NCBI RefSeq assembly: GCF_004361815.1
Contig: NZ_SNWA01000001.1
Span: forward strand, 310,001-374,000
Length of the DNA stretch: 64,000 bases
Direction: 5' to 3'
From: Paraburkholderia sp. BL10I2N1
GTDB taxonomy: Bacteria; Pseudomonadota; Gammaproteobacteria; Burkholderiales; Burkholderiaceae
This document shows, one piece after another, positions 12,134-47,196 of this stretch; positions within the stretch are counted from its first letter, which is position 1, and every line of letters begins with the position of its first letter. The notes below the pieces were generated by a model, which was given only the letters and a program-made list of their open reading frames with translations, made no database searches and was not told the DNA's origin. The position numbers were made by a program, and so were the translations under genes.

Positions 12134-13840
<1,707 letters not shown>

Positions 13841-44113: not shown

Positions 44114-44890
44114 GTGTGGGTCGACAAACGCCAGTGGCGCTCTGGTGATCTTAGTTTAAGAGCTGGTTGCGATGACGAAGGAAATGCGCTCGGTAGCTGT
44201 GTCGTTGCCGGCTTCCTGGGCAAGAAGGTCACGCCGCAATTGGCGCAGGAGATCGGCTCGCGGCTGTCCACCCGCATCGAGGGACGCTGCATCAAGCACC
44301 ATATGGGCGTTGCCAGCGTCAAGGTTTACGACAAGTTCTCCCATGTGTTGCGGATAGAAACCACCATCAACGACGTGAGCTTCTTCAAACACCACCGCAA
44401 GGTGGACCACAGGAATGGCCAAAGCACCTACGAACTCGCAGCGTTGAGGAAAACCATCTACAGCCTGTTCGACCTGCGCGAGATCATGCTGGGCTGCAAC
44501 CAGCGCTACCTCGCGTTTTTGTCGAGTCTGGATGACCCCAGCGCAGGTGAGCGCGACCTTCAACGTTTGAGCCAGTCCCGCGTGGGCAGTAATGAGCGCA
44601 GGGTCAAAGGACTCAACTTCTTCAACGGCGGCGAGCAAGCACTGCTGCGTGCCTTGCAGCGCGGCGAGTTCAACGTGCATGGCCTGCGCCGTGCCGATCT
44701 GGCCAGGCATGTGGACATGAGCGCCCCGGTGCTGTCCCGACAGCTCTCGCGACTGCGCACACTCGGCTTGATCAAGAAGGTGGCCCATACCTACCGCTAC
44801 TACCTCACGCGTCTGGGCCGTGCCGCCATCGCTGCTGCCTGTTCTCTCACCCGTTTCAACATCGTTCCAATTCTGGCCGCAGCACACTGA
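44114..44890 (+). CDS. Protein of unknown function with C-terminal winged helix, N-terminally truncated
   Basis: 258 residues in the frame, but the first 45 or so look non-native and GTG is the only start, so the N-terminus may have been lost. From RIEGRCIKHHMGVASVKVYDKF and IETTINDVSFFKHHRKVDHR the sequence is coherent. The C-terminus, DLARHVDMSAPVLSRQLSRLRTLGLIKKVAHTYRYYLTRLGRAAI, resembles a MarR-type winged helix. No family is recognised; context, between a TlpA operon and an ISL3, suggests a mobile-element or integrated remnant. A terminator hairpin follows the stop. Confidence 0.5.
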   Translation: MWVDKRQWRSGDLSLRAGCDDEGNALGSCVVAGFLGKKVTPQLAQEIGSRLSTRIEGRCIKHHMGVASVKVYDKFSHVLRIETTINDVSFFKHHRKVDHRNGQSTYELAALRKTIYSLFDLREIMLGCNQRYLAFLSSLDDPSAGERDLQRLSQSRVGSNERRVKGLNFFNGGEQALLRALQRGEFNVHGLRRADLARHVDMSAPVLSRQLSRLRTLGLIKKVAHTYRYYLTRLGRAAIAAACSLTRFNIVPILAAAH

Positions 44891-44925
44891 AGTCTTCTCA
44901 CAAATCGCGAAGACTTAACTTTTTA
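44890..44925 (+). terminator. Intrinsic terminator, disrupted by the ISL3 insertion
   Basis: AAGTCTTC (44890-44897) pairs with GAAGACTT (44109 positions on: 44909-44916), then AACTTTTTA, a T-tract. The ISL3 element inserted at the T-tract and the tract is repeated beyond it as the target duplication CTTTTTAG. Confidence 0.7.
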
Positions 44926-45037
44926 GGGGTCTTCGCGGAAAAGTGTGATGGTTTTTCATGATGAAAATGTCGGAGAGCCAATCTGGGCAAGGGTTTGCGC
45001 GTCTTGATGGCCTCTCGAAATCGGGCATGATTTCGCG

Positions 45038-47150
45038 ATGGCTACTTCACGCAAACTCAAGCGTCTTTCCGACGCATACCGGTTCGACGGGTTCCGGCCT
45101 TGCGAAGCGCTGCGCGGTGTCTTCGGTGATCGCATGGCACGCGTCGTCACGCTGTTTCGGCGCTCAAAAAAACGGCCTGCAAGGGATGTGGTCGGCGGTG
45201 CTCAATCCACGATCGCAGGGTGCGTCGCGTTCGAGATCTGCCGAACGGCGATGTACGGATTTACCTGGAACTCGAAGCTCGTCGGGTCCGCTGTCGATGC
45301 GATGGCAGCGTGAAAGGCGAACGACTGAGCTTTCTGGCGGACAACCCTCACTACACGAGGCGCTTCGCGTGGTATGTCGGTCGCCGCTGTCGCGACAGCA
45401 CGATCAAGGACGTGGCTGACGAACTGAAATTGCACTGGCGTACGGTCAAGGACCTCGAGATGCAGTACATGCGGGCACAAGTGGAGCGGTTCGGCACGCC
45501 CGGGCCGAAGGTCATCGGCATCGACGAGATTTCGATTGGCAAGGGACAGACGTACCGCATTGTTGTGAGCGACCTGATACGGGGCCGTGCGATCTGGTTC
45601 GGTGGCGAAGATCGAAAGGAGGCCAGCATGCATCAGTTCTATGACTGGCTGGGCGAGAAAAAGGCCCGCGGAATCCGGCTTGTCGTGATGGACATGTGGC
45701 GGCCGTTTTACAACGTCGCACAGGAACGCGTGCCGCATGCGGCCATCCTGTACGACAAATTCCACGTCATAAAGCAGCTCAACGAAGCCCTGGATGAAGT
45801 ACGCAAGAGCGAATACGCTCGCCTGCAAGGCGAGCAGCGGCGCTACATCAAAGGCCAGAGTGCGACACGTGTTGCTGCCCGCAACGTGTCGAGTTTCATG
45901 TAGTACAGGGCAGCAAAGCTCGTTTCTGTCTTGTCACGCACAGTAGTCTGACGTGCCGTGACCTGCTGTACGGCCAGCAGTTGCCTACTTGGACAGGCGC
46001 GGCGGGTAACTACCGGGTCTGAAGCTCCAAGGACAATGTACTCGTCGAAAGACACCACGGCTCGGTGACGATACGTGATGACGCTGCGAGCCGCAATGCG
46101 GCGTAGAGGCTAGGCAAGTTCCGCATGTGCAACATATGTGAATCGTTGATAAACCTCGTGATTGATGATGGGCCGAAGCGGCCAATAGGCCCAAACCAAA
46201 AGGTACGCAGCGGGTTGCTCCTCTTTTGGCTGGGGGTACGCCGTCATAACGCTGCCGGGGAATAGACGAGCGCTTAACGGACAGGCCCAGTTGTATTGGG
46301 TCGGCAGGAACGGGAACGTGGTAAGCCCGACTCACCGCCAAGCTCGCGGAATATTGCGAGACGGCAGGCAAACCGCAAGGGGCGCTGTTGGTGGAGCGGG
46401 TAAGAGAACGCGGAGAACGCGAATGGCAGGCTGTAATGGCTTGCATAGGGGTTCGAACTTTGCCCTGACCCGAAAGGGTGCAGACTTCCGCGAGGTGTGG
46501 CTGTCGTGAGCCCGTATTCGAAGTCCGACGCAGGGAAGCTTGGAAGAGACTGCCTCGTTGCAGTTCAGCGCCCTCATCTCAGCGATGGGACGGACCAACA
46601 ATATGAAGTTAGCGAAGGACTTGTGCTGTCTGGCAAGGCCGGCATTGAGTGACGGTGCTTTAGCCATGCGCGAGCCCATTGCGGTGAAAGTCGCTTGATG
46701 GGTTCTTTGGGGAGGGGGCGGCGGGAATGCCGTCTCCTTACCCGCTAGTACGTTCTGCTCAGTCATCGCGAGAACCTGTCGATGGAAGGCAGGAACTCGT
46801 TGAAGACGCTTCTCGCAGCGAACCGACGTCTGAATACCGCGTACCTGCTCAAGGAGTCGTTCGGGCAGTTGTGGGACTACAAGCGCGAAGGCTGGGCACG
46901 TCGCTTCTTCGAGAACTGGAAATCCAGCTTGAAGTGGCAGCGTTTGAAGCCCTACGAGAAGTTTGCCGCGATGGTAGAGCGTCATTGGGACGGGATTGCT
47001 TCCTATTGCAAGCCAGAAAACAAGGTGCCGCTCGGATTCGTTGAGGGACTCAACAACAAGGTTCGGGTTATCCAGCGACGCGCGTACGGATTGCGAGATG
47101 AGGAATATCTGCGCCTGAAGATCCTCACTTGCATGCTGCCTCGAATCTGA
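45038..47150 (+). pseudogene. ISL3-family transposase, split by frameshift and group II intron
   Basis: Segment 1 (45038-45172) reads LKRLSDAYRFDGFRPCEALRG...RRSKK. At a run of seven A (45166-45172) reading must shift by -1 into the frame KTACKGCGRRCSIHDRRVRRVRDLP, a zinc-finger and helix region. Segment 2 runs to the intron at 45860; segment 3 starts at 46747 and completes the catalytic domain. Joining across the intron restores IKGQ-KYVLLSHREN in frame. The DDE residues are in IGIDEISIG, VVMDMWRP and GFVEGLNNK, all present. The gene would be functional if the intron splices and the A-run slips; otherwise it is dead. Confidence 0.85.
45860..46746 (+). ncRNA. ORF-less group II intron
   Basis: Starts with GTGCG, the 5' consensus, and contains a 34-nt domain V at 46672-46705 with the AGC triad, GAAA tetraloop and the two-part stem. 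Domain VI lies just 3' of it. The 3' end at 46746 is chosen because it restores the transposase frame; it ends CT rather than the usual AY. There is no reverse transcriptase frame of useful size, so splicing or mobility must use a protein from elsewhere. Confidence 0.88.
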
Positions 47151-47196
47151 AAAATGGCGATTTTTCATCACACTTTCCGCGAAGATCCCTTTTTAG

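Follow-up and report, generated by a model that had tools for sequence, protein, structure and literature searches.

How does a group II intron without a reverse transcriptase come to lie inside the transposase gene of a mobile element, and is it still spliced from that gene? The question is raised by a 64,000-nucleotide stretch of the Paraburkholderia sp. BL10I2N1 genome (hereafter the window), in which an insertion sequence (IS) is split by an intron lacking an open reading frame (ORF) of that kind. A preliminary description had read this locus as an ISL3 element bounded by an 8-bp duplication. The ISL3 assignment held, with the Pfam domains Zn_ribbon_ISL3, HTH_Tnp_ISL3 and DDE_Tnp_ISL3 in the transposase, imperfect inverted repeats at the termini and copies of CTTTTTAG on both sides, while the length of the duplication had to be given as 7 or 8 bp, because one base at the boundary between repeat and duplication is ambiguous. 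The features of the locus are listed in Table 1.

Table 1. Positions of the ISL3 element, its intron and the intron's recognition elements, in window coordinates
Feature	Position	Strand	Remarks
Target-site duplication CTTTTTAG, left	44919..44926	.	
ISL3-family IS, intron included	44927..47188	+	Inverted repeats, Pfam domains, intron-free sister copies
Transposase 5′ exon	45038..45859	+	ATG at 45038; frame shifts at A7 run; main frame 45130-45859
A7 run	45166..45172	+	Site of reading-frame change
TA at −16/−15 of 5′ exon	45844..45845	+	Recurrent in family; probably read by intron-encoded protein (IEP)
IBS2 CATCAA (−14 to −9)	45846..45851	+	
IBS1 GGCCAGA (−7 to −1)	45853..45859	+	
ORF-less group II intron	45860..46746	+	887 nt
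Domain 1	45866..46320	+	RF02012 match at 45962-46109
EBS2 UUGAUG	46162..46167	+	Complementary to IBS2, 6 bp
EBS1 UUUGGCU	46225..46231	+	Complementary to IBS1, 7 bp including 2 G-U
Domain 2	46325..46401	+	Our assignment on the consensus structure
Domain 3	46409..46492	+	Our assignment on the consensus structure
Domain 4	46495..46669	+	Our assignment; 175 nt without ORF; covarying helices 38-47
Domain 5	46672..46705	+	34 nt
Domain 6	46709..46743	+	
Transposase 3′ exon	46747..47150	+	DDE_Tnp_ISL3 profile 118-240
Target-site duplication CTTTTTAG, right	47189..47196	.	

The transposase gene is interrupted at 45859/46747, and the translated exons cover positions 1-115 and 118-240 of the DDE_Tnp_ISL3 profile; the two positions between these stretches correspond to the last residue of the 5′ exon and the split codon, which lie outside the matches. 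The claim that intron removal restores the frame was borne out by this profile match and by intron-free copies of the element, which read through the junction. Splicing alone gives no single continuous ATG-started ORF, since the transposase frame is broken once more at the A7 run, where the N-terminus goes out of frame with the remainder. The A7 run is present in five of the six near-complete intron-free copies (L175-L180), and the remaining one (L180) has A8 and reads through. Because most copies of the IS carry the A7 break, its transposase may already need slippage or an internal start, and the fact that the A7 form has multiplied hints at the same.

The genome that contains the window (9.2 Mb in four contigs) also harbors this IS in seven copies that lack the intron; six of them are near-complete and the seventh is partial. 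The six share 98.5-99.1% identity with the window IS minus its intron over about 1376 nt, and the partial copy is 98.0% identical across 559 nt. A search with the first 941 nt, comprising the duplication and the 5′ exon side, returned six further near-complete matches at 98-99% and two fragments in the same genome. In all seven copies the junction GGCCAGA/AGTACG is unbroken, which fixes the intron boundaries exactly and shows that insertion duplicated no target bases. To the left of the window IS, 723 nt (44204-44926) match the left flank of one intron-free copy (L177; L182) at 99.6% identity, and 15 nt are also common on the right, so that both elements occupy one and the same position in two copies of a repeat. 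With 19 mismatches, these two IS copies are less alike than their flanks, so a separate insertion or conversion is possible.

The sense orientation of the intron within the transposase and the restored frame would both suit a joint element in which intron and IS move together, with splicing masking or gating transposition. This reading is largely refuted and must be regarded as highly improbable. With up to two mismatches allowed, 1 of 144 genomes of the genus had the ISL3-intron junction, as did none of the seven other IS copies, and a travelling ISL3-intron element was rejected on these counts; the intron family, moreover, also occupies other IS and other genes. The locus thereby differs from IStrons, which likewise join an intron ribozyme to an IS but are described as having a group I intron and parts that travel together (PMC4227781), whereas here a group II intron and its IS do not.

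The intron itself begins with GTGCG and ends with TACCCGCT. Group II introns usually end in AY at the 3′ side; this one ends in CGCT, a position fixed by the empty sites. Two Rfam models matched above their gathering thresholds, RF02012 at 45962-46109 (109.2 bits, E 4.9e-22, gathering threshold 34) and RF00029 at 46670-46746 (48.6 bits, E 1.7e-6). Together with the GUGYG 5′ end, the 34-nt domain 5 (D5), the bulged branch adenosine of D6 and a six-domain fold, in which the limits of D2-D4 are our own assignment, these features identify a group II intron and bear out the length, start and domain V given in the preliminary description. The candidate branch adenosine (46740) lies 7 nt from the intron end and is invariant in all 16 aligned introns. 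No reverse transcriptase is encoded within the intron, as had been stated: its only ATG-started ORFs of more than 60 codons are two antisense ones (153 and 115 codons), and D4 is free of an IEP. The intron belongs by its RNA to the RF02012 class, that of introns with CL-like IEPs, and nine of the ten IEP loci searched match the same model. Folding of the RNA, proposed as a check, was of little use for the single sequence (z −1.33, unremarkable and thus undiagnostic), and covariation within the intron's family, used in its place, supports a D1-D6 structure.

This family consists of ORF-less introns of about 0.9 kb in Paraburkholderia, Caballeronia, Cupriavidus and relatives. Matches to the intron were present in 68 of 299 family genomes; outside the window, 11 places match over 758 nt or more of the query, with identities of 69-81%. 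The copy number within the window genome, which the preliminary description had proposed to examine, proved low, with the full intron present once and one partial match of 136 nt elsewhere, but the intron is not isolated, given this multi-genus family. A 23-base pattern of the 5′ end retrieved 70 stretches from GTDB contigs, and in 62 cases the title named Burkholderiaceae, Burkholderiales or a member genus. We set aside the eight non-Burkholderiaceae loci as chance matches, L033 as a duplicate of L054, and L118, the single pattern match in viral contigs, as probable chance. Among the 24 copies with both ends, 17 measure 883-910 nt, five are longer and two shorter.

Fifteen of these 17 copies (without L100 and L103) were aligned together with L129, giving sixteen full-length introns in 956 columns with a mean identity of 77%. 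The consensus structure has 271 pairs, with 97.0% of cells paired. Pairs changed on both sides numbered 125, against a mean of 69.0 (sd 4.6) in shuffled alignments and 19-34 in slid versions, over which the structure has an advantage because it was derived from the same alignment. Covariation extends to D5, D6 and the 175 nt assigned to D4; in IEP-encoding introns this D4 location holds the reverse transcriptase gene, where the ORF-less family has covarying helices. Three loci of 2.5 kb (L070, L096 and L104) were considered as maturase-encoding parents and rejected, L096 because its ORF (L018) appears by eye to be an IS110-type transposase and the other two on their similar length only. Other long family loci are L062 (4.0 kb) and L107 (6.1 kb). 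At L069 and L020 an ORF-less intron lies within another copy of its own family, in a twintron-like arrangement.

The family occupies a variety of host genes. At 5 of 23 joined loci a sense transposase frame continues through the junction and is supported by a Pfam match in one or both exons: the ISL3 transposase of the window (L001), a Tn5-like transposase (L014), DDE_3 transposases of IS630 type (L099 and L110) and an rve transposase of IS3 type (L107). At L157 the last 410 nt of the intron are 94% identical to the window intron and the 3′ side enters DDE_Tnp_1, and at L082 the intron lies antisense within an rve transposase. Just downstream of L052 (exon TAAGAGAATGTTTCAA) is an antisense DDE_Tnp_1 gene (L022), and by eye that intron is perhaps placed in an IS end. 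In contigs of leaf symbionts, exons of phosphorylase, aconitase-like and MFS genes precede the intron 5′ end in sense (L081, L111 and L050); each of the ten leaf-symbiont loci breaks off after 49-257 nt of intron and is thus assigned to the family by the initial bases of the intron. Hosts identified so far, a minority of the sites, thus comprise several transposase families and some other genes.

If the introns reach such different sites by RNA-guided insertion, their EBS loops should match their own exons. Pairing with the exon had been named beforehand as one point on which the intron reading could fail, and the window locus passes this test: both EBS1, located by a search over 520 nt of the intron, and EBS2 can pair with the exon (Table 1). 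For the family we aligned 48 introns of at least 420 nt and removed six (L069, L073, L074, L075, L097 and L103), leaving 42, of which 25 had loop anchors (21 distinct) and 17 had none. Across the 21 distinct sites the mean score of EBS1 against IBS1 was 9.81 (shuffled maximum 8.24) and that of EBS2 against IBS2 was 9.38 (shuffled maximum 5.29), and none of 2000 permutations reached either value. EBS1 was fully paired across 6 nt at only 13 of the 21 sites. EBS1 of L066 fits its siblings' TTTCAA site fully and its present exon with one mismatch; by eye the 5′ exon there resembles an IS630 N-terminus, and the 3′ side contains an IS4/5 gene, which would be compatible with exon exchange by recombination.

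A second element of the target lies upstream of IBS2. TA occupies positions −16/−15 in 14 of 21 exon classes, taking the first member of each, against a background of 0.026; the classes are rough, with some unlike sites merged and some like sites split, and the 42 introns behind the count include some with less than 0.55 identity to the window intron that may be truncated or chance matches. Maturase-encoding relatives that start with GTGCGACRCG have the same TA in 10 of 13 cases, the exceptions being L142, L144 and L163, the last with TA shifted one base outward. It was found in none of nine maturase-encoding relatives with other apparent starts (GTGCGACC, GTGCGACG or TTGCG; L121, L137, L143, L145, L152, L153, L154, L155 and L164). 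An HNH domain is present in 11 of 12 GTGCGACRCG-start maturase loci examined, a set that excludes L163. The motif common to the ORF-less introns and the GTGCGACRCG-start relatives suggests that one IEP lineage, mostly HNH-bearing, inserts both, and TA at −16/−15 is probably read by the IEP.

Exact boundaries, empty sites, a family RNA structure, EBS-IBS matches to each intron's own site, sites that differ and a shared TA rule can all be read from the sequences compared here, and the ORF-less family appears to enter new sites aided by related introns. The explanation that we favor, with good confidence, is that a non-autonomous intron of the RF02012 class was inserted in trans into one ISL3 copy and would use a maturase for splicing. 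It would have entered one copy of the multicopy element by RNA-guided insertion, with the reverse transcriptase/maturase of a related intron acting in trans; the intron RNA would have recognized the site through EBS2 and EBS1, and the protein would have read TA at −16/−15. Thereafter a maturase of the class would be required or helpful for splicing from the transposase mRNA, and the interrupted IS copy would make transposase only where splicing works. Splicing may in this way control transposition, as the preliminary description had suggested and as has been proposed in print for RmInt1 (PMC4238363).

The supply of such a maturase was considered within and between genomes. Of the ten loci scanned in the window genome, only L121 combines RF02012, D5/D6 and an intact IEP. 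This protein (P0002) has RVT_N, RVT_1 and GIIM domains with no HNH match, and belongs to the other-start subgroup without the TA motif. The maturase search proposed earlier thus yielded one intact same-class IEP and, of the TA lineage, a remnant, namely an 86-aa match at 70% identity whose frame contains a stop (G000:C3:120803-121063). The suggested dependence on a foreign maturase stands in part: an intact IEP of the class exists in the genome, but its subgroup lacks both HNH and the TA motif.

Between genomes, an intact IEP of the same class, defined by 53% identity or more and 450 aa or more, was found in 10 of 16 intron-bearing and 0 of 16 non-bearing genomes (Fisher p 2.5e-4). Compared here were 16 bearing genomes, the best of 68, and the first 16 of 20 listed non-bearing genomes of the same genus; the bearing set includes other genera, and within the genus the counts are 4 of 8 and 0 of 16. 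At a threshold of at least 69% identity, the HNH lineage was intact in 6 of 16 bearing and 0 of 16 non-bearing genomes, one non-bearing genome having it in two pieces. Co-occurrence of intron and IEP is real but not strict, as the search found no intact same-class IEP in six of the 16 bearing genomes, several of which are drafts. These six genomes would fit an intron that self-splices independently of any protein, as would C.te.I1, described as self-splicing with no IEP gene in its own genome (PMC4424553). The TA motif shared with an IEP lineage and the co-occurrence with IEPs instead indicate use of a protein, at least for mobility, and we consider a maturase-free intron unlikely.

Maturase-dependent splicing would be compatible with two present states. 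Since the TA lineage is represented only by a broken remnant and the intact IEP belongs to another subgroup, the intron could be either active or stranded; if it is active, it may rely on a non-cognate protein in the window genome. A stranded relic would share the arrival route of our favored explanation and differ from it on present activity, splicing having been lost as the cognate maturase lineage broke and the IS copy having been inactivated. The stop in the TA-lineage IEP, the different subgroup of the intact one and the single full intron copy all point that way. The intron has nevertheless kept GTGCG, D5, the D6 branch adenosine, EBS1 and EBS2, the genome still holds an intact IEP of the class, and some Thermosynechococcus elongatus IEPs are described as mobilizing several ORF-less introns (PMC2882425). 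We therefore hold a stranded relic to be a real possibility, if a somewhat doubtful one, beside the favored reading of an intron still spliced with the help of a maturase.

The closest parallel is T. elongatus TeI3, served in trans by TeI4 IEPs. As described in PMC2882425, TeI3 introns are likewise ORF-less and related to IEP-encoding introns, their families likewise differ in EBS1/EBS2 with a base contact at A-15, and some likewise sit in IS or in other introns. That account concerns one thermophile genome and includes mobility assays, whereas the present family spans several Burkholderiaceae genera, has several of its coding sites in transposases that belong to different IS families and is known here from sequence alone. 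The same source describes EcI5 and TeI4h as dependent on A-15; the EcI5 IEP likewise recognizes A-15 and other positions upstream of IBS2, reading C-18, C-17, A-14 and T+5 as well, whereas in the 5′ exon, the side compared here, T-16 and A-15 stand out. RmInt1 of Sinorhizobium meliloti is likewise a group II intron in an IS, ISRm2011-2, and its splicing has been proposed to limit that IS (PMC4238363). It is described as encoding its own IEP, with an IS630-family element as natural site (PMC5894124), whereas here there is no IEP and several IS families are involved.

According to one review, group II introns without an ORF are rare in bacteria (PMC4424553), and in a genome survey 888 of 13,041 lacked an IEP (PMC8919778). 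Mobilization of ORF-less introns in trans, introns inserted into IS, twintrons and an intron that restrains its IS have all been published (PMC2882425, PMC4238363), and no description of a multi-genus ORF-less family in Burkholderiaceae was found in the open-licence literature searched. The case is thus a well-supported new example, each part of which has precedents. The intron that the preliminary description had called unusual belongs to a multi-genus family, with precedents in TeI3 and RmInt1. The retargeted family, the shared TA motif and the filled and empty IS copies provide one system for two questions: how parasitic introns change target, and whether intron splicing limits a host transposon.

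Several minor observations accompany these results. An HNH-lineage IEP lies in two pieces about 2.7 kb apart (G020:C3:529352-533529) in a genome that has no match to the ORF-less intron at E 1e-3. In the window genome, a strong D5/D6 match of 64.7 bits (L119; G000:C2:1413891-1413977) is accompanied by no match to the D1 family or to a maturase in the 7.5 kb of sequence searched. At L161:1299-1472 a ZTP riboswitch directly adjoins a maturase-encoding intron of the RF02012 class on the same strand. Within the window, Rfam 5_ureB_sRNA matches 12287-12572 on the minus strand with 118.4 bits.
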